From contig CAKQEI010000014.1 of the NCBI GenBank assembly GCA_934230115.1, positions 1 through 38,043 of the forward strand: 38,043 nt of DNA. The letters run 5' to 3'. The notes under the pieces are model-generated. The model made no database searches and had not been told where the DNA came from. It worked only from the letters and a program-made list of their open reading frames with translations. Numbering within the stretch: position 1 is the first letter of the stretch; every line of letters begins with the position of its first letter. Position numbers and translations under genes: made by a program. This stretch comes from an uncultured Prevotella sp. (lineage in GTDB: Bacteria > Bacteroidota > Bacteroidia > Bacteroidales > Bacteroidaceae). Shown in pieces: positions 17,895 through 35,176 of the stretch.

Positions 17895-17899
17895 GGATT

Positions 17900-19909
17900 A
17901 TGACATTTGCTGATGAAATAAGAATGGGCATTCCTGATTTCTTACCCGAACCGATGCCCTACGACAACAATATAAATCATGCGCCAAAGCGCAAGGAGAT
18001 ACTTACACAAGAGGAAAGACAACTTGCCCTGCGCAATGCTCTTCGCTACTTCCCGAAACATCTGCATGCTCAGTTGGCTCCGGAATTTATCGACGAGCTG
18101 AATCGCTATGGACGCATTTATATGTATCGTTATCGTCCAAGTTATGATATGTACGCACGACCTATAGACGAGTATCCGCATCGCTCTGAACAGGCTGCTG
18201 CAATAATGCTGATGATTCAAAACAACTTGAATCCTGAAGTGGCACAGCATCCACACGAGCTTATAGTATATGGTGGCAATGGAGCCATTTTCCAAAACTG
18301 GGCACAATACCGTCTCACTATGAAATATCTTAGCGAGATGACTGATGAGCAGACTCTTGTAATGTATTCAGGACATCCGCTCGGTTTATTCCCTTCGCAC
18401 AAGAATGCGCCGCGAGTAGTGGTGACGAATGGTATGGTGATACCAAACTACTCTAAGCCTGATGATTGGGAGCGTATGAATGCCTTGGGCGTGAGTCAGT
18501 ACGGACAGATGACGGCAGGATCGTACATGTACATTGGTCCGCAGGGCATTGTGCATGGCACTACTATAACAGTGCTCAACGCTTGTCGCAAGCAACTTTG
18601 TGCAAAAGGCGAGGCAAAGGATATACGTGGTATGCTATTTGTGTCGTCGGGGCTTGGCGGTATGTCGGGAGCACAGCCAAAGGCGGGCAATATTGCTGGT
18701 GTGGTGAGTGTGGTTGCTGAAATCAATCCTTTGGCTGCCAAGAAACGCTACGACCAGGGATGGGTGGATGAACTTCACGACAATCTCGACGAACTGATAC
18801 CTGCCATTAGAAAGAGTGTAGAGGAGAAGCGCACTGTGTCGATGGCTTATGTGGGTAATGTTGTTGACCTATGGGAGCGACTTGCCGATGAGGGAGTACA
18901 TGTGGATATTGGCAGCGACCAGACTTCGTTACACAATCCGTGGGCTGGTGGCTACTATCCTGCCGACCTTACACTTGAGGAGTCGAAGACTATGATGGCT
19001 GAGAATCCTGATGAGTTCCGCAAGCATGTTCAGGCCTCTTTGTGCCGACAGGTGGCTGCCATCAACCGTCTTGCTGCCAACGGAATGTACTTCTTCGATT
19101 ATGGCAACGCCTTCTTGTTGCAATCCAAGCGTGCTGGTGCCGACATCTGCTTGGACAACGGCAAGTTCCGCTATCCGTCATACGTACAGGACATCATGGG
19201 CCCGATGTTCTTCGACTATGGCTTTGGTCCTTTCAGATGGGTTTGCACGTCGGGTTCTCCTGCCGATCTTGCCAAGACTGATGAGATTGCAGCACGTGTG
19301 CTTGAGGAAATCATGCAGAGTGCGCCAGATGAAATAAAGGGACAGATGGCCGACAATATACATTGGATTCGTGAGGCAAGTCGCAACAAACTTGTGGTTG
19401 GTTCGCAGGCTCGAATCCTTTATGCCGATGCCGAAGGACGTTCGAAGATTGCCTTGGCTTTCAATGAAGCTATAAAGAATGGTGAGATAACACGTCCAGT
19501 GGTGCTTGGACGCGACCATCATGATGTGTCGGGCACCGACTCGCCTTTCCGTGAGACAAGCAACATCTATGATGGCTCGCAATTCTGTGCCGACATGGCT
19601 GTACAGAATGTCATTGGCGACTCTTTCAGAGGTGCCACATGGGTGTCGCTGCATAATGGTGGTGGCGTAGGTTGGGGCGAAGTTATTAATGGTGGTTTCG
19701 GTATGGTGATTGACGGTAGTCAGGAGAGTGACTGTCATATACGAAAGATGCTCTTTTGGGATGTGAACAATGGCATTGCCCGTCGCGCATGGGCTCGCAA
19801 CGAGGGAGCTATCCATAGTATAGAGCGTGAGATGATGCGCTCGAATGGCTTGCAGGTGACTATGCCTAATATAGTCGATGACGATATAGTCAACAAGTTT
19901 GCCAACTGA
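17900..19909 (+). CDS. hutU: Urocanate hydratase
   Basis: Hydrates urocanate to 4-imidazolone-5-propionate using tightly bound NAD+. Urocanase signatures include YGGNGAIFQNWAQYRLTMKY, YSGHPLGLFPSH, the glycine-rich MLFVSSGLGGMSGAQPKAG segment, DQTSLHNPWAGGYYPADLT and a C-terminal SLHNGGGVGWGEVINGGFG block. At 669 residues it belongs to the longer urocanase type with an N-terminal extension, rather than the roughly 555-residue form of Pseudomonas and Bacillus. The 5-base gap from ftcD implies translational coupling. Confidence 0.96.
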   Translation: MTFADEIRMGIPDFLPEPMPYDNNINHAPKRKEILTQEERQLALRNALRYFPKHLHAQLAPEFIDELNRYGRIYMYRYRPSYDMYARPIDEYPHRSEQAAAIMLMIQNNLNPEVAQHPHELIVYGGNGAIFQNWAQYRLTMKYLSEMTDEQTLVMYSGHPLGLFPSHKNAPRVVVTNGMVIPNYSKPDDWERMNALGVSQYGQMTAGSYMYIGPQGIVHGTTITVLNACRKQLCAKGEAKDIRGMLFVSSGLGGMSGAQPKAGNIAGVVSVVAEINPLAAKKRYDQGWVDELHDNLDELIPAIRKSVEEKRTVSMAYVGNVVDLWERLADEGVHVDIGSDQTSLHNPWAGGYYPADLTLEESKTMMAENPDEFRKHVQASLCRQVAAINRLAANGMYFFDYGNAFLLQSKRAGADICLDNGKFRYPSYVQDIMGPMFFDYGFGPFRWVCTSGSPADLAKTDEIAARVLEEIMQSAPDEIKGQMADNIHWIREASRNKLVVGSQARILYADAEGRSKIALAFNEAIKNGEITRPVVLGRDHHDVSGTDSPFRETSNIYDGSQFCADMAVQNVIGDSFRGATWVSLHNGGGVGWGEVINGGFGMVIDGSQESDCHIRKMLFWDVNNGIARRAWARNEGAIHSIEREMMRSNGLQVTMPNIVDDDIVNKFAN

Positions 19910-19948
19910 AAATCATAATAACTATTAATCAGAAAAAAGCCTAAGTTT

Positions 19949-21433
19949 ATGAAGATTCACAAGATTTCAGCCGAGCACCTTTCGATAGAACGTATAGGTG
20001 AGATAGTGTATGGTGGCTACAAGATAGAACTGAGCGACGACGCGCAGAGACGCATTGTGCAATGTAGAGATTATCTTGACCATAAGATAGAGGAGTCAAC
20101 TGCTCCTATCTATGGAGTGACTACGGGTTTTGGCTCGCTCTGCAACGTTAGTATTGGTTCCGACTATCTGGCACAGCTTCAAATCAACCTTATGATGTCG
20201 CACGCATGTGGCACAGGCGACCGTGTGCCCAACGACATTGTAAAGATAATGTTGCTGCTTAAGATACAGTCATTAAGCTACGGTTTCTCTGGGTGTCAGC
20301 TTGTTACCGTCAATCGACTTATCGATTTCTTCAATAATGATGTCTATCCAGTGGTCTATATGCAAGGCTCGCTTGGAGCGTCGGGCGACTTAGTGCCGTT
20401 GGCTCATCTGTCTCTGCCGCTCGTTGGTTTGGGCGAGGTGGAGTATGATGGCATGGTAATCAGTGGAGCCGAGATGCTTCAGAAGTTTGAATGGCAACCT
20501 ATTCAGCTTGCCTCGAAAGAGGGTCTCGCCCTGCTCAATGGTACACAGAATATGGGTGCCTTTGCAGTATGGGCTTTGCTGCAGTCGCAACGGTTGAGCG
20601 ATTGGGCAGACAAGATAGCGGCTATGTCGCTCGACTCTTACTACGGACTTACCGCCCCATTCACCGATGCTGTTCATCAGGTGCGTCCGCACAAAGGACA
20701 AATTGTGACGGCTGCAAGAATGAGAGAACTGCTCGAAGGCAGTGAGATAATGGAGAAGCCAAAGTCGTATGTCCAGGACCCTTACTCATTCAGATGTATT
20801 CCGCAGGTGCATGGCACGGTGAAGGATACTATAGAATATGTAAGGTCGGTGGTTGATGTAGAGGTGAACTCTGCTACCGACAACCCTACGGTTTGTCCAA
20901 ACGAAGACCTTATCATATCTGCAGGCAACTTCCATGGCGAGCCTATAGCCATGCCTATGGATTTTCTTGCCATTGCCCTTTGTGAGTTGGCTAATATCTC
21001 TGAGCGTCGTATCTACAAGCTTGTGAGTGGCACTCGCGGACTGCCAAGTTTCCTCGTTGCCAATCCTGGAGTGAACAGTGGTTTCATGATTCCTCAATAT
21101 ACTGCTGCATCAATAGTGAGTCTTAATAAGACTCTCTCTACACCATCTTCTGTTGACAGTATTCCGTCAAGTCAAGGTCAGGAAGACCATGTGAGTATGG
21201 GTGCCAATGCTGCAATAAAGCTCTATAAGGTGGTGCTCAATACAGAGCGTGTGCTGGCTATTGAGCTGTTCAATGCGGCTCAAGCTCTTGACTTCCGACG
21301 CCCGCTCAAGTCGTCGCCCGCAGTAGAGGCTGTGCATGATAGCTACAGACGGGTGGTTCCGTTTATTGTAGACGACGAGGTGATGTATCCGCATATTGCG
21401 CATTCTATCGATTTTTTGAGGAGAGAATGGTAG
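19949..21433 (+). CDS. hutH: Histidine ammonia-lyase
   Basis: Deaminates L-histidine to urocanate, the entry step of the pathway. The MIO prosthetic group forms from A144-S145-G146 in the motif GSLGASGDLVPLAH. Other family features are YGVTTGFGSL near residue 55 with the catalytic-type Tyr55, and the substrate-site segment SATDNPTVCPNED. At 494 residues its length is normal. It lies 39 bases after hutU and 49 before hutI, so the four genes encode a complete route from histidine to glutamate. Confidence 0.96.
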   Translation: MKIHKISAEHLSIERIGEIVYGGYKIELSDDAQRRIVQCRDYLDHKIEESTAPIYGVTTGFGSLCNVSIGSDYLAQLQINLMMSHACGTGDRVPNDIVKIMLLLKIQSLSYGFSGCQLVTVNRLIDFFNNDVYPVVYMQGSLGASGDLVPLAHLSLPLVGLGEVEYDGMVISGAEMLQKFEWQPIQLASKEGLALLNGTQNMGAFAVWALLQSQRLSDWADKIAAMSLDSYYGLTAPFTDAVHQVRPHKGQIVTAARMRELLEGSEIMEKPKSYVQDPYSFRCIPQVHGTVKDTIEYVRSVVDVEVNSATDNPTVCPNEDLIISAGNFHGEPIAMPMDFLAIALCELANISERRIYKLVSGTRGLPSFLVANPGVNSGFMIPQYTAASIVSLNKTLSTPSSVDSIPSSQGQEDHVSMGANAAIKLYKVVLNTERVLAIELFNAAQALDFRRPLKSSPAVEAVHDSYRRVVPFIVDDEVMYPHIAHSIDFLRREW

Positions 21434-21482
21434 GAAGCCACATGCCTACTACAGTTACTAAATTAACTGATAAAAAACAACA

Positions 21483-22718
21483 ATGAAATTATTAGTAAAG
21501 AATATTCGTTCTCTCGTAGGTGTAGAATACATGTCTAAGCTACGTCTGCAAGGCAGGCAGATGGCAGAACTCAATACAATTGACAATGCATGGCTTCTTG
21601 TGGAGGATGGACGCTTTGCACAGTTTGGTAGTGTGGAGGATGGTATGCCGCTCTTGGAAGGTATAGATGAAATTGTAGATGCTGAAGGTGGTATGGTTCT
21701 TCCTTCATGGTGCGATTCTCATACCCATATTGTCTTTGCCGGAAGTCGTGAGCGAGAGTTTGTTGATAAGATTAACGGACTTAGCTATGAGGAGATAGCG
21801 CGTCGTGGAGGCGGTATACTCAATTCTGCCGATCTGTTGCACCAAACTTCTGAGGAAGAACTTTATTCTCAGGCAATGCGCCGACTTGATGAGGTTATAC
21901 ATAAAGGCACGGGGTGTATTGAGATAAAGAGCGGTTATGGTCTTAACCTCGAAGACGAGTTGAAGATGCTGCGTGTGATAAAGCGTATGAAGGAGACTTC
22001 AAGAGCGAAGATTGTTTCTACGTTCCTTGGTGCCCATGCTGTGGCAAGAGGTATGTCGCAGGATGAATATGTGAGTCTTGTTGTTGACGAGATGATTCCA
22101 GAAGTGGGACGTCAGCAACTTGCCGACTTTGTAGATGTGTTTTGCGACCGCGGATTCTTCACGCCTAAGGATACTACCCGTATTCTCGAAGCAGCCGCTA
22201 AATGGGGTATGCGTCCTAAGATTCATGCCGATGAGTTGGCGTCATCAGGTGGAGTAGAGGTAGGAGTGAAGCATGGAGCCCTTTCGGTGGATCATCTGGA
22301 GAGCATGACCGAAGAGGAAATCGAAATATTGCGTGGCACAGACACTATGCCTACAGTATTGCCAGGCACATCGTTCTTCCTTAATATGCCTTACGGCAAG
22401 GCACGCAAGATGATAGATGCAGGTTTGGGGGTGGCTGTTGCCAGCGACTACAATCCAGGCTCAACACCTTCTGGCGACATGAAGTTCGTCGTTTCGTTGG
22501 CTTGTATAAAGCTGCGTCTGCAACCGAACGAGGCTATTAACGCCGCAACATTGAATGGTGCCTGTGCCATGGGAGTGAGTGCCGAATATGGAAGTATTGC
22601 CAAGGGAAAAGTGGCCAATTTCTTCATCACACATCCTGTTCCATCGGTAGACTTCATTCCCTATGCCTATACAACTCCGATAGTGAAGAAGGTGGTATTG
22701 GCAGGTGAAATGGAATGA
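21483..22718 (+). CDS. hutI: Imidazolonepropionase
   Basis: Metal-dependent amidohydrolase that opens 4-imidazolone-5-propionate to N-formimino-glutamate, supplying FtcD. The metal-binding HxH is in CDSHTHIVFAGSRE (H80, H82). Further conserved pieces are the KSGYGLN segment, the metal-ligand KIHADELASSGG, VDHLESM and the aspartate in VASDYNPGSTPSG. At 411 residues it is full length. It is the last gene of the operon and is followed by a strong hairpin at 22773-22806. Confidence 0.95.
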   Translation: MKLLVKNIRSLVGVEYMSKLRLQGRQMAELNTIDNAWLLVEDGRFAQFGSVEDGMPLLEGIDEIVDAEGGMVLPSWCDSHTHIVFAGSREREFVDKINGLSYEEIARRGGGILNSADLLHQTSEEELYSQAMRRLDEVIHKGTGCIEIKSGYGLNLEDELKMLRVIKRMKETSRAKIVSTFLGAHAVARGMSQDEYVSLVVDEMIPEVGRQQLADFVDVFCDRGFFTPKDTTRILEAAAKWGMRPKIHADELASSGGVEVGVKHGALSVDHLESMTEEEIEILRGTDTMPTVLPGTSFFLNMPYGKARKMIDAGLGVAVASDYNPGSTPSGDMKFVVSLACIKLRLQPNEAINAATLNGACAMGVSAEYGSIAKGKVANFFITHPVPSVDFIPYAYTTPIVKKVVLAGEME

Positions 22719-22934: not shown

Positions 22935-25409
22935 ATGACTTATACTATTGAAAAGGTTACAACGCTCATAGGAGCCCACCGCTTCGGCACAGCTGATGCA
23001 AACATAGGGTTTCTGCTAACTGACAGCCGCTCGCTGTGCTTTGCCGAGGAGACTTTGTTCTTCGCCTTGAAGTCGGGACGTGGCGACGGTCATAATTATA
23101 TTTCCGACCTCTACAGGCGTGGAGTGCGTAATTTCGTGGTGGAGCATGTGCCATTGGATTATGCCTCTACCTATGCTGAGGCTAACTTCCTGCGTGTGGA
23201 GAATTCGCTTGTAGCTCTGCAGCGACTTGCCGAACGCCACCGCGACGAGTATGACATTCCTGTAGTGGGAATAACTGGCTCCAATGGCAAAACCATCGTA
23301 AAAGAATGGCTTTACCAACTCCTTTCGCCAGAAATCAATGTCACACGCTCTCCGCGTAGCTACAACTCGCAGATTGGTGTGCCACTGTCTGTATGGCTTC
23401 TTAACGAGCAGAGCCAGGTGGGAGTGTTTGAAGCTGGAATATCAGAGCCTGGCGAGATGCTTGCCTTGCGCGACATAATACAGCCAACTATTGCCGTGCT
23501 TACCTTCATCGGTGACGCTCATCAGAAGAATTTTGAGTCGCTTGAAGAGAAGTGCCGCGAGAAGGTTACTCTTTTCCACGATGCCAAAACTATTGTCTAC
23601 TGCAAGGACGACACCCTTGTAGACAATGTGGTGAAGAGTTTCGACTACAAGGGTGACAACCTTGCATGGTCGATGAAGGATCCTACGGCTGCTCTCTTTG
23701 TAAAGCAAGTGGAGAAGAAGGATTTCATATCCACTATACATTATATATATAAGGGTGAGGAAGGGGAGTACGACTTGCCATTTATCGACGAGGCTTCGGT
23801 GCGCAATTCTGTCACCACTGCCGTTGTGGCTCTGCATCTTGGATTGTCGCGCGAGCTTCTTGCAGAGCGCATGAAGAACCTTGAACCAGTAGCTATGCGT
23901 CTTGAGGTGAAGGAGGGACAGCATGGATGCACACTCATCAACGATTCATACAACTCCGACATCAATTCGCTTGACATTGCGCTCGATTTCATGAGTCGCC
24001 GTCCCGACCACAATGGTCGCAAGCGCACGCTCATACTTAGCGATATCTATCAGACCGGTGAGCCGCTTGATAGACTTTACAAGGAGGTGTCAAACCTTTG
24101 TTTGCAGCGTGGGGTGAACAAAATCATAGGTGTCGGTCCGCAGATTATGGAACATGCCGACTTGATAAAAGTACAGGAGAAGTTCTTCTTCCACGATGTC
24201 ACTTCGTTCATTCACAGTACAGTGTTTGAGTCGCTTAGGGACGAGGTTATCCTTATCAAGGGAGCACGCCGATTCGGTTTCGACAATATTACAGAATTGC
24301 TTGTGCAGAAAGTGCATGAGACAATTCTTGAGGTAAACCTCTCTGGCGTGGTGAAGAATCTGAACTTTTATCGCTCGTTCATGAAGCCTGAAACCAAGCT
24401 TGTATGCATGATAAAGGCTGATGCCTATGGTGCTGGTGCTGTGGAGATAGCAAAGACGCTGCAAGACCACCGCGTTGACTATCTTGCCGTAGCAGTGGCT
24501 GATGAGGGTGTAACTCTCAGAAAGAATGGCATCACATCCAACATTATGATAATGAACCCGGAGATGTCGGCGTTCAAGACAATGTTCGACTATGATCTTG
24601 AACCTGAGGTTTATTCCTTCCGACTGCTCGACGCTCTTGTGCGCGAGGCTCAGAAGAATGGCATCAGCAACTTCCCAGTTCATATCAAGCTCGATACGGG
24701 TATGCACCGCCTTGGTTTTGACCCATTGAAGGATATGCCTGAGCTTATCGACCGTCTGCAGCATCAGTCGGCTGTCATCCCGCGCTCGGTGTTCTCGCAC
24801 TTTGTTGGCAGCGACAGCGATTCCTTCGACGAGTTCTCAGCCTATCAGTTTGGACTCTTCAACAAGGGCAGCAAGCAGCTTTGCGATGCTTTCCCACACA
24901 AGATTCTGCGCCATATCGACAATTCTGCTGGCATAGAGCATTTCCCCGAACGTCAGCTCGACATGTGCCGCCTGGGATTGGGACTCTATGGCTACGACTC
25001 ACGCGACAACTCAATGATAAACAACGTGACTACGCTGAAGACAACAATCCTGCAGATTCACGACATACCGGCTAATGAAACTATTGGCTACAGCCGTCGT
25101 GGAACGCTGACACGCGACTCGCGTATCGCTGCCATTCCTATTGGCTATGCCGATGGACTCAATCGACATCTTGGCAACCGTAACTGCTATTGCCTTGTAA
25201 ATGGCAAGAAGGCAGAATATGTGGGCAACATCTGCATGGACGTGGCAATGATTGATGTTACGGATATCGATTGCAAGGAAGGCGACCAGGTGATAATATT
25301 TGGCGAGGAGTTGCCAGTGACTGTCTTGTCGGATGCTATAGACACTATTCCTTATGAAGTGCTTACCGGCATAAGCAATCGAGTGAAGAGAGTTTATTAT
25401 CAGGACTAA
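22935..25409 (+). CDS. Fused UDP-MurNAc-tripeptide:D-Ala-D-Ala ligase (MurF) and alanine racemase
   Basis: An 824-residue two-enzyme fusion for peptidoglycan precursors. The N-terminal MurF part (about 1-450) adds D-Ala-D-Ala to the UDP-MurNAc peptide; its ATP-binding loop is GITGSNGKT (112-120). The C-terminal PLP-dependent alanine racemase (about 455-824) makes D-alanine from L-alanine. It has the PLP lysine K494 in MIKADAYGAG and the second catalytic tyrosine Y719 in ETIGYSRRGT, plus PIGYADGL and GNICMDVAMIDVT. The fusion is a known Bacteroidetes arrangement that couples D-Ala supply to its use. It is transcribed alone, between the hut terminator and the hairpin at 25456-25503. Confidence 0.95.
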   Translation: MTYTIEKVTTLIGAHRFGTADANIGFLLTDSRSLCFAEETLFFALKSGRGDGHNYISDLYRRGVRNFVVEHVPLDYASTYAEANFLRVENSLVALQRLAERHRDEYDIPVVGITGSNGKTIVKEWLYQLLSPEINVTRSPRSYNSQIGVPLSVWLLNEQSQVGVFEAGISEPGEMLALRDIIQPTIAVLTFIGDAHQKNFESLEEKCREKVTLFHDAKTIVYCKDDTLVDNVVKSFDYKGDNLAWSMKDPTAALFVKQVEKKDFISTIHYIYKGEEGEYDLPFIDEASVRNSVTTAVVALHLGLSRELLAERMKNLEPVAMRLEVKEGQHGCTLINDSYNSDINSLDIALDFMSRRPDHNGRKRTLILSDIYQTGEPLDRLYKEVSNLCLQRGVNKIIGVGPQIMEHADLIKVQEKFFFHDVTSFIHSTVFESLRDEVILIKGARRFGFDNITELLVQKVHETILEVNLSGVVKNLNFYRSFMKPETKLVCMIKADAYGAGAVEIAKTLQDHRVDYLAVAVADEGVTLRKNGITSNIMIMNPEMSAFKTMFDYDLEPEVYSFRLLDALVREAQKNGISNFPVHIKLDTGMHRLGFDPLKDMPELIDRLQHQSAVIPRSVFSHFVGSDSDSFDEFSAYQFGLFNKGSKQLCDAFPHKILRHIDNSAGIEHFPERQLDMCRLGLGLYGYDSRDNSMINNVTTLKTTILQIHDIPANETIGYSRRGTLTRDSRIAAIPIGYADGLNRHLGNRNCYCLVNGKKAEYVGNICMDVAMIDVTDIDCKEGDQVIIFGEELPVTVLSDAIDTIPYEVLTGISNRVKRVYYQD

Positions 25410-25455: not shown

Positions 25456-25521
25456 CAAATCCTTTTTGGTTGAGCGAAAGAACGCTCGACTAAAAAGGAT
25501 TTGTTATTTAAAGAAGTTTTT
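25456..25521 (+). terminator. Terminator of the MurF-Alr gene
   Basis: Arms of 21 bases at 25456-25476 and 25483-25503 pair throughout, with two G-U pairs, and close a 6-base loop (aaagaa). A long T-run (about 25518-25524) follows slightly downstream. It lies 47 bases after the stop codon. Confidence 0.8.
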
Positions 25522-25654: not shown

Positions 25655-25739
25655 AAGTATTATTAAGACCGAGCTTGGTCTTAATAATACTTGAGGGTTG
25701 GTCTTAATAGAAGACCAAAAAGGGTCTTCTATTAAGACT
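25655..25739. repeat. Two tandem hairpins sharing a common arm sequence
   Basis: Hairpin A has perfect 16-base arms (25655-25670 and 25677-25692) and a 6-base loop. Hairpin B has perfect 16-base arms (25701-25716 and 25723-25738) and the loop aaaaag. Both contain ggtcttaata or its complement, so strands can exchange: 25661-25670 can pair with 25677-25686 or with 25700-25709. Hairpin B is followed on the + strand by tcttttct. The pair lies about 210 bases beyond the end of the - strand caspase operon and could be a 3' end structure, an RNA switch or a small mobile-repeat remnant. Confidence 0.6.
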
Positions 25740-25948: not shown

Positions 25949-26155
25949 TTATATATTGATTTCTTCCGAAATGATTTTGAAGAAATCTTTTTTCAATATA
26001 ATTGATATTTCGGCTAATATAGCAGTGTCGATACTGTTGCGCGCCACATAGCGGTAGACAGTGGAGCGGTTGCATTCAAGCTCTTTGGCAAGCCAACCGA
26101 CAGAATGTCCCTGTCGGTCGAGCTCGTCTTTTATCATTTTTCCTATGTTTATCAT
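25949..26155 (-). CDS. Small XRE-like helix-turn-helix protein
   Basis: A 68-residue protein that is little more than a lambda-repressor-like DNA-binding domain: IKDELDRQGHSVGWLAKELECNRSTVYRYV gives the first helices and recognition helix, followed by NSIDTAILAEISIILKKDFF. Short one-domain proteins of this type are common in Bacteroidetes. It lies 16 bases after the TPR protein gene and closes the seven-gene caspase operon, so it may regulate that operon. The palindrome at 33250-33267 is a possible target, but nothing in the sequence proves the pairing. It could instead be an independent regulator. Confidence 0.8.
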   Translation of the reverse strand: MINIGKMIKDELDRQGHSVGWLAKELECNRSTVYRYVARNSIDTAILAEISIILKKDFFKIISEEINI

Positions 26156-26171
26156 AGCGTCTTTTTATTTC

Positions 26172-27584
26172 TTAATAGCTTATACCAACACCAATGCCAA
26201 TACGCTGTTTGCCAATAAAATCCTTAAGGTTGGAATCCATAGCAAAGCGGTACTGATAGGTGAGCCTTACGGCAAAGTAAGAGTATTTCACGCAGATACC
26301 GATAACAGGAGATATAGCCCAACCAAGGTTGGCCTTGGTGTCGTTCTCTGTATATATGGCTTGTTTCTTGCTGTTTGTACTTTCGTATTCGGATGAGGGT
26401 TTCAATACTCCGTTAGGGTCGTTAGGTATTCCATCAGCACCAGGGAATATTTCCTCTATGTCAGAGTCGTTCTTCTTGTAGTCGCCATAATAGCACTTGG
26501 CTGTGACGCCAGGACCAAAGAACACCCATACTGGATTGACCACCTTCAAAGTCCAACCGAAGCTTAAATTCATTTCGGGCATATCGGGGATAGCACAGTT
26601 GCTGCGCATCATGTCAAACACTTGCTTGTTGAGGCTCATGTTGAAGAAGCCGCCTGCCTTGTGCATGTTATACTTGCCGTAAGAGAAGCCGATGGGCGAA
26701 TCCTTGAGATATTCATAGGTGAGCACACGAGAGTGGGTCTGGCGTTGGTTGAGAAGCAAGTTGATTTTGTTTCTCTGTTCTATGGCTTGTACCTTTGCCG
26801 GACAGTTGCTGTCGATAATGCGGTTGAACAGTTCAAGGGCTTTGTCATACTGTTTCTCGTTGAAATAGTAGTCGGCCTGACGGTATGTGGCATCACATTC
26901 TGTGGTGAATTTGGTGAGACAGTTGCTGAAGCGATTGGTGGCATAGGTGTCGTAGGGGTTAAGCTCTGTCACCTTTTCGTAGTAGTAACTTGCCTGTCGG
27001 TAGTCGAGCAACTTGTATGTTGCCTCTCCCTTCTCGCGGTAGAAGAGTATGGTGTCTACAAGTGCTATGTTTCTCTCGTTCTCTTCAGCGTCAACGTCAG
27101 AGCACTTGCGTGCAACGATAAACTGGTCGCGTGCCTCGTTGTAGTTCATATTCTTTAGTTCTTCCATTCCCTTGTTGCGATGACCGCGGTAGCAGCCGGC
27201 GTCAACCTGGCTGTTAGGGTCTATGGCTTGGAAAGTAGCTACTTGCTTGGGCTTTAAGTCAGAAAGAGTAAGTACCACAGTACTGTAGCCAGGCGACATA
27301 ACCATCACTTCACGACCACGATAGCGTGAGCCGGTAGGAAACTCAATGTAGTAGATAGAGTCTGAACCCTCGACCGTGGTGTTGTATGGAGTTGCCGACT
27401 TGTCCATTGTCGATTCAAATGTCAGGGGAATTGACTTGTTGCATTTCACCACTACAACAGCCTTGTTGTCCTCGCTTGAGTAAACGTCGTTGGGTTGTGA
27501 GATGTCTGTAATTTCAAGTACGTTCTGTGCAAATGCGGTGGATGCAAGCACTAACGCAAATACTATGGATAAGAATTTTTTCAT
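26172..27584 (-). CDS. Exported TPR-containing protein with beta-barrel-like C-terminus
   Basis: Predicted exported protein of 470 residues. The signal peptide MKKFLSIVFALVLASTAFAQ is followed by a beta-rich domain (about 21-125). Helical repeats of TPR character follow (about 140-285: YNEARDQFIVARK, KLLDYRQASYYYEKVTELNP, FNEKQYDKALELFNRIID). The C-terminal third (about 300-470) has alternating aromatic strands and ends RIGIGVGISY with a terminal aromatic, as in outer-membrane barrels. This suggests an outer-membrane protein with a periplasmic repeat domain for protein contacts. No named family is claimed. It is sixth in the caspase operon, 36 bases after the NTF2-like gene and 16 before the HTH gene. 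Confidence 0.78.
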   Translation of the reverse strand: MKKFLSIVFALVLASTAFAQNVLEITDISQPNDVYSSEDNKAVVVVKCNKSIPLTFESTMDKSATPYNTTVEGSDSIYYIEFPTGSRYRGREVMVMSPGYSTVVLTLSDLKPKQVATFQAIDPNSQVDAGCYRGHRNKGMEELKNMNYNEARDQFIVARKCSDVDAEENERNIALVDTILFYREKGEATYKLLDYRQASYYYEKVTELNPYDTYATNRFSNCLTKFTTECDATYRQADYYFNEKQYDKALELFNRIIDSNCPAKVQAIEQRNKINLLLNQRQTHSRVLTYEYLKDSPIGFSYGKYNMHKAGGFFNMSLNKQVFDMMRSNCAIPDMPEMNLSFGWTLKVVNPVWVFFGPGVTAKCYYGDYKKNDSDIEEIFPGADGIPNDPNGVLKPSSEYESTNSKKQAIYTENDTKANLGWAISPVIGICVKYSYFAVRLTYQYRFAMDSNLKDFIGKQRIGIGVGISY

Positions 27585-27620
27585 AAGTATGTATTTTAAG
27601 ATGTTAATGAATCATTGTTA

Positions 27621-28616
27621 TTATCTCACAATGCGGAACGAACCAAGATGGAACACCTCATCCTTTTGTGTCACTATGTTGCCCGCAGCGTCCTTGTATG
27701 GCTGCCATGTGCGTACTTGTATGAGAGGGTTGTCGGAATCGCGGAAATCTATCATAAGGAACAGGTAGCCCTCGTCGTGATAACGGTCGGTTCGCCAACT
27801 TTGTTTTAGTGTGACGCCATAGATACTGTCAAACTTGGGATGTTCGACAATTTCTATGTCCGAGAATTTCACATTGATGAATTTCACTGTCTTGAACACT
27901 TGTGCAAGCTTCGTGAGATACTCTTGTTTTGTTTGTTTAATGTATACCACACGGTTGTTGTTGAGTGTCAATCTTGTGAGGTCGGAGTTTGGCTTTTCTT
28001 TCACCACTCTTCCTGTGATAATAAGAGCCTTGTCGCTGAAGACGCTGTTGAGCATAGCATTGTCCTTGCGGTTGTATGCAGTGCGGAAGTTCTCTATGAA
28101 GTCGACTATTATCTGTCGGCGGGCATAGTCAAGATCCGACTGCTTTTGTGCCATCAGTTCTTCGTAGCGGTTCATCTCAATGGCAATGGCCACGTTGCTT
28201 ATTGTGCCTTCTGTGTCGAAGTTGATGGTGAGCTCTTGTCTTGCCTCGTCTCCATCTGCTGCAAGAATGTCGACGGGAATACCCCTCACTTGGTAGCCAT
28301 TGGATGTCTTGAGGCAACGGCAGTTAAGATTCATGGGCGGACAGCTCATAGCACTGCTTTTCCATATTTCCTTTATCTCTTCAATGGCAGTTTTTGAGAC
28401 ATTGTCTTTTGACAGTTTCACTGTTTTTTCGCCATTGTCGGCAGCTGTGCGGAAGGCGTCGAGCAGAGCTTTCACGTTGGTTTCCATGCGTGCCTTCACA
28501 TTAGGGTCGACTTCGCCATCAGTTATTTTGAATGATGTTGTGGCTAAAGCTTGGCTTAATGATATGAAGAAAACAAGCAAGCCGAGCATAAGTCTGTTGA
28601 TGATTGTTCTATTCAT
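27621..28616 (-). CDS. Exported NTF2-like domain protein of unknown function
   Basis: A 331-residue protein with a signal peptide (about 1-25, LSQALAT). The first domain (about 30-160) is unrecognised and has two closely spaced cysteine groups (SCPPMNLNCRC, residues 91-101). The second (about 165-308) resembles the NTF2/SnoaL cone fold: FIENFRTAYNRKDNAMLNSVFSDKALIITG, then YGVTLKQSWRTDRYHDEGYLFLMIDF and VRTWQP. In such folds the cone often binds a small ligand or mediates dimerisation. Its start overlaps the stop of the upstream gene by 4 bases (ATGA), so translation is coupled. Fifth gene of the caspase operon. Confidence 0.78.
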   Translation of the reverse strand: MNRTIINRLMLGLLVFFISLSQALATTSFKITDGEVDPNVKARMETNVKALLDAFRTAADNGEKTVKLSKDNVSKTAIEEIKEIWKSSAMSCPPMNLNCRCLKTSNGYQVRGIPVDILAADGDEARQELTINFDTEGTISNVAIAIEMNRYEELMAQKQSDLDYARRQIIVDFIENFRTAYNRKDNAMLNSVFSDKALIITGRVVKEKPNSDLTRLTLNNNRVVYIKQTKQEYLTKLAQVFKTVKFINVKFSDIEIVEHPKFDSIYGVTLKQSWRTDRYHDEGYLFLMIDFRDSDNPLIQVRTWQPYKDAAGNIVTQKDEVFHLGSFRIVR

Positions 28617-29305
28617 TTTTTGTTCTCTTTATTGCTATATATTGATGTTACGTTGTTTTGTGGAATGTTGGAGTATAGTTCTGCTGTGAACATGCCCTCG
28701 CTTTTGAACAATTCCTTTATCGGTATTCTTACTATAAACATGTGTATATAGTCGCTTTCTGGTTGGTGCATCACAAGGTTGGCCTCGATGTTGTCGGGGT
28801 CTATCTTGGTCACGCTACAGTATATTTCCTTGTCTGTTGCAAGTACTTGATAGATGGCATGCAGCGGTAGCATCACCTTCTTCTTCACGTTGCCATACTG
28901 GTGATGAATAATGGTTATGCGATGGGAGTCGTTGTTGATGGTGTTCATCAGCAGGTTCACAGCCGACTCCATAGGGTATTGCTTGCCGAATACCGGACGT
29001 CTCGTCTTGTTGTCAACATATATGTCCGAGCGCAGCGAGTTCACCTGAAACCAAGTGCCTTCGGCTATTTTTATATTATCTTCGTTGGTGTCGGTAAGTT
29101 TCGATTGGCTGAAGTCAAGAACTTTTGTCAACAATCGTCCTCCACTGTAGCTTGACAGCATGTCGAATACTTTAGCATCGGCAGTTGCCTTGTCCTCGGT
29201 TTTATGTATCACTTTGCTGTGTGTCGTTTGTTGTGCTGCTGCATTGTCGGGCATACACATTGACAATGCAGCGAGCATAGTCAGCGAGCTGTTGCGTATG
29301 TTCAT
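28613..29305 (-). CDS. Exported protein of unknown function in the caspase operon
   Basis: A 230-residue protein with a signal peptide (MNIRNSSLTMLAALS..., cleavage near NAAAQ at about 24). No family is recognised. A helical segment (about 40-70) precedes a beta-rich body with WFQVNSLRSDIYVDNKTRRPVFGKQYP and a C-terminal MFIVRIPIKELF strand, which suggests a soluble periplasmic domain. It starts 24 bases after the FecR-like gene and its stop overlaps the next gene by 4 bases. Function is unknown; context ties it to the neighbouring caspase and CHASE2 proteins. Confidence 0.72.
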   Translation of the reverse strand: MNIRNSSLTMLAALSMCMPDNAAAQQTTHSKVIHKTEDKATADAKVFDMLSSYSGGRLLTKVLDFSQSKLTDTNEDNIKIAEGTWFQVNSLRSDIYVDNKTRRPVFGKQYPMESAVNLLMNTINNDSHRITIIHHQYGNVKKKVMLPLHAIYQVLATDKEIYCSVTKIDPDNIEANLVMHQPESDYIHMFIVRIPIKELFKSEGMFTAELYSNIPQNNVTSIYSNKENKK

Positions 29306-29329
29306 GTTGTTGTATTTTTATGGTTGGCT

Positions 29330-30286
29330 TTATTTTGTAGATGTTCTCACGCGCGACATTCCTACACGCATCTTTGAGCCTGTGTGTTTTCCTGCAGTGA
29401 TGTCGTTCATCAGTATGCTGAAGTTCACTGGCTCTTCGGTAGCAACAAGCAGGAAGGCATCTTCCGACGGTATGTCAGAAGTGATGAAAGGCTCTGTTTT
29501 GAATCCCACCGTGCAACTTGCGGGAACCAGCAGATTGGAGCATGTCGCCTCTTCGTCCATAGGTAGCACAAGATATTTGTTGCCCTTGGCATCAATGTTG
29601 AGCACATTCACGTAGAGTGTCTCGTTGGTGTTGTTTCTCACTCTTACGTAGCATGCAGTATTTGGCTTGATGTCCTTAGGCAGGGCTTTGCCGGTCTGTG
29701 GATCTACAAGCTCAAGTGTCACGTCGAGGTCGGAGGCAATAATGCTGGAATTGTTTACTATCTCCTTTTCGGGTGTGCTGGCGTTTGTTGCTCCAGTGTT
29801 CATGATGTCAACAATACGAGCCATGAACAGCGAGTCGACCGACACGGCACGGTATGATGTGCCAGTCACCTGCATATAGGTGTCGGGGTGTGCCATCTTT
29901 TTTGTCTTGGAGTCGAAGAGTTGTTTCACAAGATATCCCATGTATTGTTTTGTAAGACTCTTGGTGCGCTGGCTCGACAATTCTATTAGTTCGCCTACAG
30001 TGCTTGTTCCTTCACGCGTGAAAGAATACATCTTAAGCTTAGCCTCGTCGAGTATGGTTACGGCACTTTCGCTTGTTATCTTAAGCCGCGAGTTTTTCGT
30101 GACGTATTTGCGGGTGGGCAGTGGCAGGAACTTTCCTCCTTGTTCCATGTAGGCTTTGCCAGTCACTGAATAGACTGCGTATTTCTGAGCGTTGGCTATG
30201 CTGCATGTGCCTATGAGCATAATTATTACAGCAACGAATATGGCGGCGGCATGTCCGCATAGTGTGGCAGATATGTTATTTTTCAT
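29330..30286 (-). CDS. Exported FecR-like / DUF4384-like protein
   Basis: A 318-residue protein beginning at ATG 30286; an ATG 30 bases earlier is less likely because it adds residues before the signal peptide or anchor (hydrophobic to about 33, ending SIANAQ). A FecR-like beta-domain follows (about 35-100: YAVYSVTGKAYMEQGGKFLP, then SRLKITSESAVTILDE). A C-terminal domain resembling DUF4384 (about 180-300) has CYVRVRNNTNETLYVNVLNI, a YLVLPMDEE strand and a FLLVATEEPV strand. DUF4384 and FecR-like domains are known companions of caspase-like and CHASE2 proteins in other bacteria. Its start overlaps the caspase gene by 11 bases. Confidence 0.74.
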   Translation of the reverse strand: MKNNISATLCGHAAAIFVAVIIMLIGTCSIANAQKYAVYSVTGKAYMEQGGKFLPLPTRKYVTKNSRLKITSESAVTILDEAKLKMYSFTREGTSTVGELIELSSQRTKSLTKQYMGYLVKQLFDSKTKKMAHPDTYMQVTGTSYRAVSVDSLFMARIVDIMNTGATNASTPEKEIVNNSSIIASDLDVTLELVDPQTGKALPKDIKPNTACYVRVRNNTNETLYVNVLNIDAKGNKYLVLPMDEEATCSNLLVPASCTVGFKTEPFITSDIPSEDAFLLVATEEPVNFSILMNDITAGKHTGSKMRVGMSRVRTSTK

Positions 30287-32003
30287 AATTGAAAATGTTA
30301 AAGTGTTCAATACCATTGGGGTTTATAAATATTGGAGTCTGCTTGAAGTCGGTAATCTTTCTCACCTCTTTATATAGGAAGTGTTCAAGTTCCTGTGTTG
30401 ACAGACCTTCGGATTGTTCCTCGCGTGCGGCTCCGTTGAAACTCTCGACAAGTGCTTTTGTGAAAGCACCGTTGCCCCATGATTCATCCTCGCGCGATTT
30501 TGTGTCGGACGAACTTGAGGCGTATAGCAGCATACCGTTTTTCGCGCGTTTCAGTTGTTCCACGAAATGGCTTGTGGCAGCAGAGCGTGTGCCCTCGAAT
30601 AGTGCTCCTGAGTAGCAAGCGTCGACAAAGGCAATGAGCTTGCCGTTGATGTCTTCGGCTTCGTTGCGGAAATCAGTTGCGCTGAAACAATCGTAGAGCT
30701 TGTCCGAATTGCATCCGTAAGGTATGAAGAAGAATCGGTCTTTCTCGTCGCGCAATCCATGTCCTGCATAGAAGAAAATGCACACATCGTTGGGCGATGA
30801 CTCTTGCTTGAGCCATTCCATAGCTTCGAAAATGTCGGCTCGTGTTGCCTCGCTGTCGCAAAGCAGTTTCACTTGCACGTCCTCGTATGGAAGTCCTTTC
30901 TTTGTGGCAACCACTTTAGCAAAGTCTTGAGCGTCCTTGCATGTGAATTTCAGCTTCGGTAGTTTCGGGTCGTTGTAGTCGCCTACGCCTATTGCCACTA
31001 CAAAGAGCTTTGGAAGCTCGAATTGTGATGTCTCGCGTATAAGGCGCAGAGACACTGGTTCGCTGTTGCCGCAACTGTTCTGCGCATACATCATTATAGT
31101 GCAGTCGTGACGTGGCAGGTCTACATCGATAGTGTTGGCAGCTCTTACTGCTCGTGTTGTTGGCAGTCGCTGTCCGTCTACCATCACCACAATGCGTGTG
31201 CTGTCTGTACAACCGTTGGTAAGTAGCTGATACTTAAGTTTCACCTGGTCGGTGTGGAATATCGACTGGTCTTCGGGGTAGAGTATGCGCAGTATAGGGG
31301 CAGTGGCTGTTGGGGTAGTGGCTGTTGGGGCAGTGGCTGTTGTATTAGCTTTTTTCAGCTCATTCGGACCAAGTATTACATTTTGTTTCTGTTGTGTCTG
31401 TGCAGTATCCTTAGGTTGTTCTTTAGGCTTTTCGCCAGGCATGTCCACTTGAATGTCAAAATCACCCTTAAGCGTCTCTTTCTGTTGCTTGGGTGCTTGT
31501 TCCGTATTTTTGCCTTCGGCCTTGTTTTTCCACTTGTTGTATTCATCCTCGTTTTTTTCCACAAGCACACCTCTTGCATAGCAGTCGGCAAGTGTGAGTT
31601 GCGCACGCTTGTAGTTGTTCTCAGCCGACTTAAGCAACAGGTTATATGCTTTGTCGTAGTCGCGTGGCACGCCACGACCGTTCATGTAGCAGTAGGCAAG
31701 GTTGTATTGGGCCTTGGCAAAATTCTGCTTGGCAGAGCGTTTGAACCACATGGCGGCAGATGTATAGTCGCGCTGTGTTCCCTCACCAGTATAATAGGCA
31801 TATCCAATATCAAACTGAGCCTCGGCGTTGCCTGCTTCGGCAGATTGAAGATACACCTCCACTGCTTTTTCGAAGTTTCCCATTCTGTATAGCGAGTCGG
31901 CTCTATGAAGTAGCTGTTCGCCATTGTCTGCTATGGCAGTAGCTCCCATACAAGTAGTTATGAGAAACATAGACAGACTTAATAAAAATCTATGGCTTGA
32001 CAT
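30276..32003 (-). CDS. Exported caspase-family (C14) protease with Sel1 repeats
   Basis: A 575-residue predicted periplasmic or envelope caspase-fold protein. A signal peptide (1-25) precedes Sel1/TPR-like repeats (about 30-145; AQFDIGYAYYTGEGTQRDY and AQYNLAYCYMNGRGVPRDY are textbook Sel1 units). A charged linker and a Thr/Ala/Pro tract (about 160-236) lead to a beta-sandwich-like domain (about 237-325). The C14 domain (about 331-570) contains FYAGHG with catalytic H415 and DACYSG with C463, both intact. Bacterial caspase-like enzymes usually cleave after Arg or Lys. The start overlaps the CHASE2 gene by 14 bases, and the stop overlaps the FecR-like gene, so expression is coupled. Substrates are unknown. 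Confidence 0.9.
   Translation of the reverse strand: MSSHRFLLSLSMFLITTCMGATAIADNGEQLLHRADSLYRMGNFEKAVEVYLQSAEAGNAEAQFDIGYAYYTGEGTQRDYTSAAMWFKRSAKQNFAKAQYNLAYCYMNGRGVPRDYDKAYNLLLKSAENNYKRAQLTLADCYARGVLVEKNEDEYNKWKNKAEGKNTEQAPKQQKETLKGDFDIQVDMPGEKPKEQPKDTAQTQQKQNVILGPNELKKANTTATAPTATTPTATAPILRILYPEDQSIFHTDQVKLKYQLLTNGCTDSTRIVVMVDGQRLPTTRAVRAANTIDVDLPRHDCTIMMYAQNSCGNSEPVSLRLIRETSQFELPKLFVVAIGVGDYNDPKLPKLKFTCKDAQDFAKVVATKKGLPYEDVQVKLLCDSEATRADIFEAMEWLKQESSPNDVCIFFYAGHGLRDEKDRFFFIPYGCNSDKLYDCFSATDFRNEAEDINGKLIAFVDACYSGALFEGTRSAATSHFVEQLKRAKNGMLLYASSSSDTKSREDESWGNGAFTKALVESFNGAAREEQSEGLSTQELEHFLYKEVRKITDFKQTPIFINPNGIEHFNIFNYEK
31297..31341. repeat. Three in-frame 15-base tandem repeats within the caspase gene
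   Basis: The unit ggggcagtggctgtt occurs three times without gaps (31297-31311, 31312-31326, 31327-31341), with one base change in the second copy. The copies encode the Thr/Ala/Pro linker at about residues 222-236. A 15-base unit keeps the frame, so copy-number change would vary only linker length. Confidence 0.85.
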
Positions 32004-33177
32004 AATATATTGACTTTTTTATGAAGTTCAACTTAGTATGCTTTGACAGCATCATTATAATCCATTTGTATTGCAGGCGGGCTGTCTCTATCAGGGCCAG
32101 TCCTACGAGTGGCAGCAGCAGACTGACATAGTAGTTGAACCTTGCAAACAGTATGAAATTCACTCCAACAAGCGCGGTGGTCACTCCAAAGTAGTAGAAT
32201 TTCATCCAGTAGATGCTTGAATAGGGTCGTTTCTTTGGCAATATTGCCCCAACCCATGCCGAAAGATAGCACACAAGGATAGCGATAATAAGGCTCACTA
32301 TGTTGCTTGCGGTGTACACTCTATGATGGGCCATTGATGATAGCATGGCGTATGCCTGTATCTTCATGCCTGCCATTTTGCCAAGTGGTGTGATGTGTGT
32401 GTCGGCTTCTTCGTTGATGGTGCCGAGTATTACAATCTTGTTTTTCAACAGTTCTCGGTTTTTCAGCACTTCGTTGTGCTTAATGGCAAGGAAGTCGGTG
32501 TGGGAATATTCAATGTTGCGTTGTTTGGGGCTTTGCGGGTAGGGCTTTGTGTCGGTGTATTTACATACAGCCATATAGGGCAGTGAATAAATGTTTTTAT
32601 TGACAAGCTTCTCGTTTTGTGAGTATTTGCGAATGCAACCGTAGCCTTCGCCTGAAATAACATTGCTGAAAGCCCATGAGTAGTCGCCCTCAATGCCATC
32701 GAAGAACGACGTGCGCACATTCTTGAATACATCTTTCTCGCTGTCGTAGTTGATAAGCTTGCAGGAAATAACTCCGTTTTTGATGTTGGCTATGGCATTG
32801 ATAAGCATCTCGTTTTCCTCCTCGTCATAGCTTGGACGCTCGAAGATAAGGTCGAGGACAAACACTTTTGGCTGGCATTTCTCTATGTCCTCAATACATG
32901 ATGCTATCTTGCGGCGGTCGTATAGCTCGGTCATGTCCACGAGCACAATGTCGTTGTTTATTTCCTTCACGCCGCTGCTGTTTTGTATCTCATAGTAGAT
33001 GTCGGTCATTGAGAAGTCGGCAAATGCTTTCTTTACAGGGTCGATGACGCTTAGATTGATTGACGCAAAAGCCAGAAACCATCCTAAAAACAGGACGATT
33101 AGCGTGACGCTCAAGTGGTCGACATTTACGAATCCTATGATGCGTTTTATGGTTCTGCTTAGCTTTGCTGTTTGCAT
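31990..33177 (-). CDS. CHASE2-domain membrane protein without cytoplasmic output domain
   Basis: A 395-residue inner-membrane protein from ATG 33177; the frame is open upstream, but the extra residues would put a second hydrophobic stretch before the anchor. TM1 is at about 21-41. An extracytoplasmic CHASE2 domain follows (about 50-285), with family-like NDIVLVDMTELYDRRKIASCI, KVFVLDLIFE, and NKIVILGT...THITPLGKMAGMKIQAYAML. Three transmembrane helices end the protein (about 291-313, 325-346 and 349-366), leaving a tail of only about 25 residues. CHASE2 proteins normally continue into a kinase, cyclase or other cytoplasmic enzyme; none is present. It heads the operon, so it probably senses conditions for the downstream caspase module. 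Confidence 0.87.
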   Translation of the reverse strand: MQTAKLSRTIKRIIGFVNVDHLSVTLIVLFLGWFLAFASINLSVIDPVKKAFADFSMTDIYYEIQNSSGVKEINNDIVLVDMTELYDRRKIASCIEDIEKCQPKVFVLDLIFERPSYDEEENEMLINAIANIKNGVISCKLINYDSEKDVFKNVRTSFFDGIEGDYSWAFSNVISGEGYGCIRKYSQNEKLVNKNIYSLPYMAVCKYTDTKPYPQSPKQRNIEYSHTDFLAIKHNEVLKNRELLKNKIVILGTINEEADTHITPLGKMAGMKIQAYAMLSSMAHHRVYTASNIVSLIIAILVCYLSAWVGAILPKKRPYSSIYWMKFYYFGVTTALVGVNFILFARFNYYVSLLLPLVGLALIETARLQYKWIIMMLSKHTKLNFIKKSIYYVKP

Positions 33178-33210: not shown

Positions 33211-33218
33211 CAAAAGTA
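33211..33218 (-). promoter_or_regulatory. -7 box of the CHASE2-caspase operon
   Basis: On the - strand this reads TACTTTTG (TAnnTTTG), 34 bases before ATG 33177. A TTTG lies only 12 bases further upstream, too close for the normal -33 spacing, so the promoter is likely but incomplete and may need an activator. Confidence 0.55.
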
Positions 33219-33739: not shown

Positions 33740-35176
33740 TTATTCGTCGGCTTGTTCTTCCAATGTATACTGGCTTGAACCGTCGAAGCAGTGTGTGCAC
33801 ACTTGGCATTTTGGCAATCCAATGGCTTTGATAAGCTGTTCGATTGTGTTGAACTTCAACGTTGTGAGTCCCAACTGGCTGCGTATCTCCTCCACCATGC
33901 GCTTGTATTGTGGCGAGTCGGTAGTGGCATATTTATCAAGGTCCTTGTTGGCATCGCCCTCAAACTTCTCGATGATGCGGCGTGTGATAAGTTCCATGTC
34001 GCTCTTGGATGAAGTAAATCCAATGAACGGACATCCGTAAACAAGAGGCGGACATGCAATGCGCATGTGGCACTCCTTAAGTCCTGCTTGGTCGAAGAGA
34101 ACCTTCACATTGTCGCGCAGCTGAGTGCCACGCACAATAGAGTCGTCGCAGAAGAGCACACGCTTGCCCCTGAGCATAGCTTTGTTGGGTATGAGCTTCA
34201 TTTTTGCCACGAGCGAGCGCATCTCTTGGTTGGCGGGAGTAAACGAGCGAGGCCATGTGGGAGTGTACTTGGCAATGCAACGCTGATAGGGCACGCCCTT
34301 GCCTGCTGCATATCCCATAGCCATGCCAGTGCCTGAATCGGGAATGCCAGAGCAGCAATCCACCTCTACGTCATCACTCTTGGCAAGGTTGAATCCGTTG
34401 GCGAATCGTGCCTCCTCTACATTCTTTCCCTCGTAGGTAGATGTCGGGAATCCGTAGTATACCCAAAGGAACGAGCATACCTGCATCTTTTTGTTGGCAG
34501 GACGCAATTGAGTCATGCTGTCAGCTGTCAGCTGTACAATTTCGCCTGGTCCAACGTTGTAGCACTCCTCGTAGTCGAGGTTGGGAAATGATGTAGACTC
34601 GCTTGATGCGGCATAAGCACCGTCCTTCTTACCTATTATAATAGGTGTGCGTCCCCATGCGTCGCGTGCGCAGATGAGCGAGTCCTCGGTCATAATCATA
34701 ATCGAGCACGATCCCTTCACGTTGTGAAAAACATTCTCTATGCCTTCCTTGAACGTCTTGCCCTGTATTATCAACAGAGCAACAAGCTCAGTTTGGTTGG
34801 TGGAACTCTGCGACAGTTCGGCAAAGTGCATGTTCTTTTCGAGCAACTGTTTGGTGAGTTGTTCAATGTTTGCAATCTTTGCCACCGTGCAGATAGCGAA
34901 CCTTCCAAGATGTGAGTTAATGACGAGCGGTTGCGCGTCGGTGTCGCTTATCACGCCAATGCCAGCAGTACTGCCTGCAAAGCGGTCGAGCGTAGGCTCA
35001 AACTTGGATCTGAAATAAGCGCTCTCGAGGTTGTGGATAGAGCGTACAAATCCCTTTTCCTTACTGTACATCGCCAGACCGCCACGGCGGGTTCCGAGAT
35101 GTGAGTTGTAGTCAGTTCCATAGAAAACGTCTGCCACGCAGCTTTTCTTGGAGATGGTGCCGAAAATACCTCCCAT
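33740..35176 (-). CDS. Amidophosphoribosyltransferase-like protein lacking the N-terminal catalytic cysteine
   Basis: PurF-family protein of 478 residues. PurF transfers glutamine-derived ammonia to PRPP in the first step of purine synthesis. Authentic PurF starts MCGIFG (or has a short propeptide before Cys), with that Cys as the glutaminase nucleophile; here the start reads MGGIFG, Cys replaced by Gly. The usual HNG oxyanion segment is also unrecognisable (TVAKIANIEQL in its place). The phosphoribosyltransferase domain is intact, with PRPP loop VLFCDDSIVRGTQL, GIPDSGTGMAMGYA and a Cys-rich end (CQVCTHC) suited to an Fe-S cluster. It may use free ammonia or have another role. It lies 48 bases after prfC and is probably co-transcribed. 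Confidence 0.85.
   Translation of the reverse strand: MGGIFGTISKKSCVADVFYGTDYNSHLGTRRGGLAMYSKEKGFVRSIHNLESAYFRSKFEPTLDRFAGSTAGIGVISDTDAQPLVINSHLGRFAICTVAKIANIEQLTKQLLEKNMHFAELSQSSTNQTELVALLIIQGKTFKEGIENVFHNVKGSCSIMIMTEDSLICARDAWGRTPIIIGKKDGAYAASSESTSFPNLDYEECYNVGPGEIVQLTADSMTQLRPANKKMQVCSFLWVYYGFPTSTYEGKNVEEARFANGFNLAKSDDVEVDCCSGIPDSGTGMAMGYAAGKGVPYQRCIAKYTPTWPRSFTPANQEMRSLVAKMKLIPNKAMLRGKRVLFCDDSIVRGTQLRDNVKVLFDQAGLKECHMRIACPPLVYGCPFIGFTSSKSDMELITRRIIEKFEGDANKDLDKYATTDSPQYKRMVEEIRSQLGLTTLKFNTIEQLIKAIGLPKCQVCTHCFDGSSQYTLEEQADE

Follow-up and report, generated by a model that had tools for sequence, protein, structure and literature searches.

A conserved CHASE2-caspase operon in Prevotella with a possible role in signal-gated proteolysis across the cell envelope

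The window analysed here, a stretch of 38,043 nucleotides from an uncultured Prevotella sp. (GenBank assembly GCA_934230115.1, contig CAKQEI010000014.1, positions 1 to 38,043), carries at 25949-33177 seven open reading frames (ORFs) on the minus strand, between a purF-like gene and a convergent murF-alr gene. In order of reading they encode a CHASE2 sensor, a caspase-fold protein, a FecR-like protein, a 230-amino-acid (aa) protein of unassigned family, an NTF2-like protein, a TPR/barrel protein and a small helix-turn-helix (HTH) protein, with gene starts set to those kept in relatives. The first-pass annotation described seven minus-strand genes with overlaps of 14, 11 and 4 bases and gaps of 16-36 bases, and the ORF listing agrees: the overlaps lie at the CHASE2/caspase, caspase/FecR-like and 230-aa/NTF2-like junctions, respectively, and the gaps measure 24 bases from FecR-like to 230-aa, 36 from NTF2-like to TPR/barrel and 16 from TPR/barrel to HTH. 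As judged from gene order, all of these genes except the HTH gene form a conserved six-gene operon, and the unit looks real and little described.

The CHASE2 sensor (31990..33177, minus strand, as are all genes of the unit; 395 aa) was proposed to be a membrane protein, which is borne out by a Pfam CHASE2 match well above the cut-off (E 9.2e-16, 58.6 bits against 26.3) at residues 53-299, between N- and C-terminal transmembrane (TM) segments. The hydrophobic stretches are 16-46, 286-315 and 327-345, and the protein ends about 28 aa past the last of them, with no second Pfam domain and no cytoplasmic output domain. CHASE2 proteins usually finish in a cytoplasmic kinase or cyclase; since this one has no such domain, the hand-over of its signal would take place in the membrane or the periplasm.

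The caspase (30276..32003, 575 aa) consists of a signal peptide, Sel1/TPR repeats at about 30-170, a linker, an Ig-like region at about 234-325 that was inferred by eye, and Peptidase_C14 at 335-559. Pfam recognises Sel1 at E 1e-22 and Peptidase_C14 at E 1.4e-18 (67.9 bits against a cut-off of 21.4). The catalytic dyad is intact (His415, codon 30761-30759; Cys463, codon 30617-30615), and both motifs are present in 23 of 23 copies. With the C14 match, the dyad and an export signal by hydropathy, the earlier call of an exported caspase-fold protein stands. Furthermore, Asp461, two residues before Cys463, is invariant in 13 of 13 aligned sequences and aligns with DSCHS of 7qp0. An acidic residue at this position is linked to basic P1 specificity in metacaspases/orthocaspases, and the protein is accordingly predicted to be a cysteine protease of this type that would cut after Arg or Lys. 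The protease domain has the highest density of invariant columns, and the ratio of nonsynonymous to synonymous substitution rates (dN/dS) for the caspase is 0.05-0.24 among the pairs listed (12 of 38 with usable dS); for the pairs measured, these alignments show purifying selection.

The third gene (29330..30286, 318 aa, start at 30286 as in relatives) encodes a predicted exported protein that had been named FecR/DUF4384, a name now reduced to resemblance at most. The FecR Pfam model matches neither the window protein nor any of 13 FecR-like copies, and DUF4384 reaches 15 bits against a cut-off of 27, with 3 of the 13 copies at E<=0.1. The overlap with the caspase gene is a steady feature of the family: in 19 of the 23 copies it measures 11 bases. 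The HTH gene (25949..26155, 68 aa), lying 16 bases 3' of the TPR/barrel gene and previously counted as a regulator within the module, gave no tblastn match in 22 readable relatives and was ruled out as part of it.

The remaining three genes are referred to below as the tail. The 230-aa protein (28613..29305) has, by structure prediction, which covered this protein and the barrel protein, a weakly predicted C-terminal NTF2/cystatin-like fold. The exported NTF2-like protein (27621..28616, 331 aa) is Cds6_C-like in its C-terminal part; its NTF2-like label is only partly secured, as the window protein stays under the Pfam cut-off (20.8 bits against 27), whereas 31 of 34 homologues match at E<=0.01. 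The exported TPR/barrel protein (26172..27584, 470 aa) comprises a beta-domain (24-121), TPR helices (130-282) and a region at 284-470 predicted to form a small C-terminal membrane barrel of OmpX type, so that structure prediction agrees with the barrel proposed at first; its outer-membrane localisation is likewise a prediction. Six of the seven products had been credited with a signal peptide or membrane segments. Hydropathy finds a signal-peptide-like or TM segment in five; in the sixth, the 230-aa protein, no segment exceeds the hydropathy cut and the signal peptide was judged by eye.

Relatives were collected through the caspase by scanning named species genomes for an exact short peptide pattern, a scan that is not exhaustive and gave 18 loci, all from Prevotella, Prevotellaceae or uncultured Bacteroidales. 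Whole-genome searches added four complete copies (L112, L132, L133 and L134) and a fifth, L135, that is cut by a contig end. The order CHASE2-caspase-FecR-like on one strand is kept in 22 of 22 readable relatives at about 39-66% identity, although these are not all independent, L002-L004 being near-copies of each other, as are L011 and L012. By these comparisons, the conservation of the first three genes exceeds chance. The tail continues the operon in 11 of the 22 (L001-L007, L017, L112, L133 and L134). In one of them, L007, a gene (L007:9217-14775) whose 1,852-aa product combines DUF4011 and AAA helicase parts with a nuclease domain, REase_MTES_1575, lies on the same strand 43 bases past the last operon gene, and an AAA-ATPase_like/PDDEXK_9 gene precedes the operon.

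A GSCFA gene and murF-alr adjoin the unit in 12 of the 22 relatives; in the window, the unit and murF-alr stand tail to tail with no GSCFA gene between them. L001, with the tail, and L132, without it, have the same flanking genes, fucokinase-like at one end and GSCFA at the other, so that the gain or loss of the tail took place at this site. A tree built from the three joined proteins separates the 11 tail-less copies from the 12 others with full support, as expected from one event. The caspases also differ in length, being 672-816 aa in tail-less copies against 530-685 aa in copies with the tail. Within the former, those of L008-L016 and L018 measure 737-816 aa, and six that were aligned have an extra conserved linker which is absent from the seven aligned tail-bearing ones; this segment may replace a function of the missing tail genes.

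As the 18 loci were found through the caspase, a CHASE2 search of 150 genus genomes provides a fairer test of linkage. It returned seven orthologues (E<1e-100, search centre included), and the caspase adjoins CHASE2 in all six that are readable, three of them newly seen. The family, genus and order groups are those of genome G004, the search centre; these searches score a limited number of candidates in each genome and may therefore overlook copies, and the caspase alignment used as a family-wide query drew mostly Sel1 repeats, for which reason orthologues were called at E<1e-100 only. At this threshold, caspase orthologues occur in 2 of 151 family genomes, one being the centre, and the order-level search found 1 in 344, the centre itself. 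The conserved gene order that had been expected thus holds for the first three genes in relatives but not across Bacteroidales: within search sensitivity, these counts and the 7 of 150 genus genomes rule out order-wide conservation and describe a narrow, patchily distributed system. The window NTF2-like protein is present on 394 contigs of a protein database, and its host is therefore common.

Transcription of the genes as one unit is a proposal from their spacing, a candidate promoter and hairpins. The promoter-like site TACTTTTG (33211..33218, minus strand), 33 bases 5' of the CHASE2 start codon, fits TAnnTTTG, the Bacteroidota -7 element, as a consensus match only, and an E. coli-type TTGACA-17-CAAAAT match overlies it. 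A two-box Bacteroidota promoter pattern has three matches in the window against 1.25 expected, none at the operon start and one within the operon on the plus strand. Two minus-strand hairpins separate the purF-like gene, to which they are 3', from the operon (33691-33651 and 33630-33589, the second with a T run, read directly from the sequence), and two strong ones (25700-25739 and 25456-25503) close the unit before the convergent murF-alr gene (22935-25409). The region has 16 terminator-like sites, more than the 8.5 +/- 3.1 of shuffles, and a search of Rfam gave no match at gathering score. The purF-like gene (33740-35176) scores 193 bits against the cut-off of 350 in TIGR01134 for amidophosphoribosyltransferase, and on this sub-cut-off score its product may be a divergent paralogue. 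Further away, at 16188-22718 on the plus strand, lie the histidine degradation genes FtcD, hutU, hutH and hutI, the C-terminal part of FtcD being FchA-like under that model's cut-off.

Parts of the operon recur in other clusters. At E<=1e-5, the NTF2-like query has matches, some of them to long LPP20/NTF2 proteins, in at least 117 of the 399 family genomes. At the loci examined, a 230-aa-type gene lies directly upstream on the same strand of 67 of 71 NTF2-like ORFs shorter than 450 aa, the others being at L128, L173 (second copy), L178 and L183. When 99 loci were classified by their neighbours, 12 were of the window type (window included), 20 of type B, in which a Sel1/TPR protein replaces the first three genes and the tail is kept, 30 of type C, six of type D (CHASE2-CHAT) and 11 of a three-gene class, after removal of L141 and L142 (LRR-caspase relatives by Pfam), with 18 outside all classes; as the 60 regions fetched for NTF2-like places are mostly the best-scoring ones, these counts are not population frequencies.

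Type C loci, of Bacteroidaceae type, encode a Tubulin_2-type protein of about 1,000-1,090 aa with MORN-like and LPP20-like proteins and relatives of the 230-aa and NTF2-like proteins (L123-L125, L127, L129, L131, L169-L177, L179-L181, L183, L184, L187-L193 and L195-L197; L183 lacks the 230-aa relative). The call is by Pfam Tubulin_2 and GYF_2 for L124 and by a model built from five loci for the rest; 16 of the 30 also have a PEGA/FGE-type protein, and this cluster is possibly of more interest than the window operon. In L128, L182, L185 and L186, the neighbourhood is the same, but a Ser/Thr kinase carries the MORN-like domain as a fusion and Tubulin_2 has no match. FHA-kinase, FHA-trypsin and PP2C genes stand beside the fusion in L186, and a small C14-like gene lies nearby in L182.

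The genus search also gave 15 non-orthologous CHASE2 places: six by CHAT (L136-L140 and L148, by model, with Pfam run on L136 and L148), four by C14 (L141-L144, by Pfam), four by FecR-like proteins (L150 with a weak transglutaminase match; L146, L147 and L149 with an LPP20/NTF2-type partner) and one, L145, without a classified neighbour. Such swapping of neighbours shows that the system is assembled from exchanged parts. The proteins of 616-638 aa in L146, L147, L149 and L130 have a C-terminal NTF2-like part, preceded by an N-terminal LPP20-like part in L146 and L147 (the two scanned), and in the first three loci they adjoin the CHASE2 and FecR-like genes. At L143:278-13909, four or five C14 caspase genes surround one CHASE2 gene, one caspase having WG repeats by Pfam and another Sel1-like repeats by eye.

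Several features of the operon are already described in general terms. According to a metacaspase survey (PMC3501461), Sel1 ranks among the four commonest partner domains of C14, export-like helices occur at the N-terminus of metacaspases, some operons also contain OmpA, and one cyanobacterial CHASE2-metacaspase fusion has a metacaspase domain thought to be cytoplasmic. The window caspase shares C14, the Sel1 partner and export-like helices with these prokaryotic metacaspases/orthocaspases, but differs from the fusion in having CHASE2 encoded by a gene of its own and in carrying an export signal. DUF4384 and caspase occur together in three papers on cyanobacterial orthocaspases (PMC7475262, PMC6426788 and PMC8283722), which may bear on the earlier remark that DUF4384 accompanies caspase-like proteins in other phyla. 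Passages on the BiofilmReg operon of Burkholderia (PMC5192318) likewise place a signal-peptide FecR-domain protein by a CHASE2 membrane sensor, which there ends in a histidine kinase and is accompanied by a response regulator and no protease. In TRADD-N/EACC1-type conflict systems, CHASE2 is among the variable domains of a partner protein, the other window genes going unmentioned in those passages of the source (PMC8195603). Type D clusters of the same genus, known from this analysis and not from a paper, resemble the operon in CHASE2, a short FecR-like protein and a caspase-fold protease, but the latter is TPR-CHAT instead of C14 and the 230-aa/NTF2-like pair is missing; L136, the one such cluster tested, has an OmpA protein after it. 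In type C clusters the 230-aa-like and NTF2-like genes stand in the same order as in the window, but a Tubulin_2/GYF_2 or Ser/Thr kinase gene lies upstream and there is no CHASE2. In the open-licence literature, subscription journals being outside the search, neither this operon nor the 230-aa/NTF2-like pair was found to be described.

The reading we favour, with a probability of roughly 0.5, is a protease system that spans the envelope, is gated by a signal and has an envelope or surface protein as its substrate. The inner-membrane CHASE2 protein would sense a periplasmic cue and relay it in the membrane or periplasm, most simply via the exported FecR-like protein, a natural relay whose gene regularly overlaps that of the caspase, to the exported Sel1-caspase. 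Where the barrel protein is present, the Sel1 repeats and the TPR-OmpX-barrel protein would dock the caspase at the outer membrane, and the 230-aa and NTF2-like proteins may form a periplasmic pair binding a ligand or partner. As output, a protein of the envelope or surface would be processed or removed by proteolysis. Several points weigh against this. The tail is absent from 11 of the 22 relatives (L008-L016, L018 and L132), and the outer-membrane part is therefore not needed by all. Relay by the FecR-like protein is a guess about a product below both family cut-offs, export is called from hydropathy and, for the 230-aa protein, by eye, and the whole barrel-protein model has a predicted template modelling score (pTM) of 0.44. 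Moreover, some distant CHASE2, FecR-like and NTF2-like gene pairs reach dN/dS 0.4-0.5, promoter-like sites in the region (21 against 15.7 +/- 4.0 in shuffles) are barely above chance, and activity, localisation and interaction are proposals from sequence and models.

Envelope suicide or anti-phage defence, in which an attack on the envelope, once detected by the sensor, would lead the caspase to destroy envelope proteins and so kill the cell, appears unlikely. It would suit the PADLOC 'caspase' match of the caspase domain (42.5 bits), the patchy distribution in 7 of 150 genus genomes, the exchange of C14 and CHAT proteases beside CHASE2, as in conflict systems, and the helicase-nuclease and PDDEXK_9 genes flanking the operon in one relative, L007. 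However, PADLOC matched none of the other six window proteins except the HTH protein (14.9 bits) and found no known anti-phage caspase partner gene among them; an export signal further sets the window apart from PADLOC caspase modules, and the caspase defences known so far act in the cytoplasm. The single chromosomal site by GSCFA/murF-alr in 12 of 22 relatives and the low dN/dS also speak against it. Constitutive surface-protein maturation or outer-membrane assembly without true gating, like that by PorU, the caspase-fold sortase of type IX secretion, is quite unlikely, as no readable copy lacks CHASE2, whereas the outer-membrane part can be dispensed with. Finally, a caspase fold serving as scaffold or regulated binder, with proteolysis beside the point, would agree with a gene set largely of repeats and binding folds and with type B and C loci that carry the 230-aa/NTF2-like pair without a caspase match, but is highly improbable given the invariant His415/Cys463 motifs and a protease domain that is the best conserved part of the protein.

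Beyond the protease, it is tentatively suggested, at somewhat less than even confidence, that the 230-aa protein and the NTF2-like protein, joined in some cases by the TPR-OmpX barrel, make up an undescribed unit of two exported proteins that Bacteroidaceae use in at least four signalling chassis (CHASE2-caspase, Sel1/TPR, Tubulin_2 GTPase-like and Ser/Thr kinase) and that in the window operon would be wired to an exported caspase as a complete sensor-to-outer-membrane proteolytic circuit. The pair, being shared, offers a handle on several other uncharacterised clusters, one of them with a tubulin-like protein. Discussion of caspase homologues in bacteria mostly concerns enzymes of death or immunity in the cytoplasm; if the proteolytic reading of the operon is true, coupling a caspase to an outer-membrane barrel and a periplasmic sensor would put the fold to another use. 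Since natural versions that have or lack the last three genes occur at one site, and since a specificity is predicted, the role of such an exported caspase is testable.

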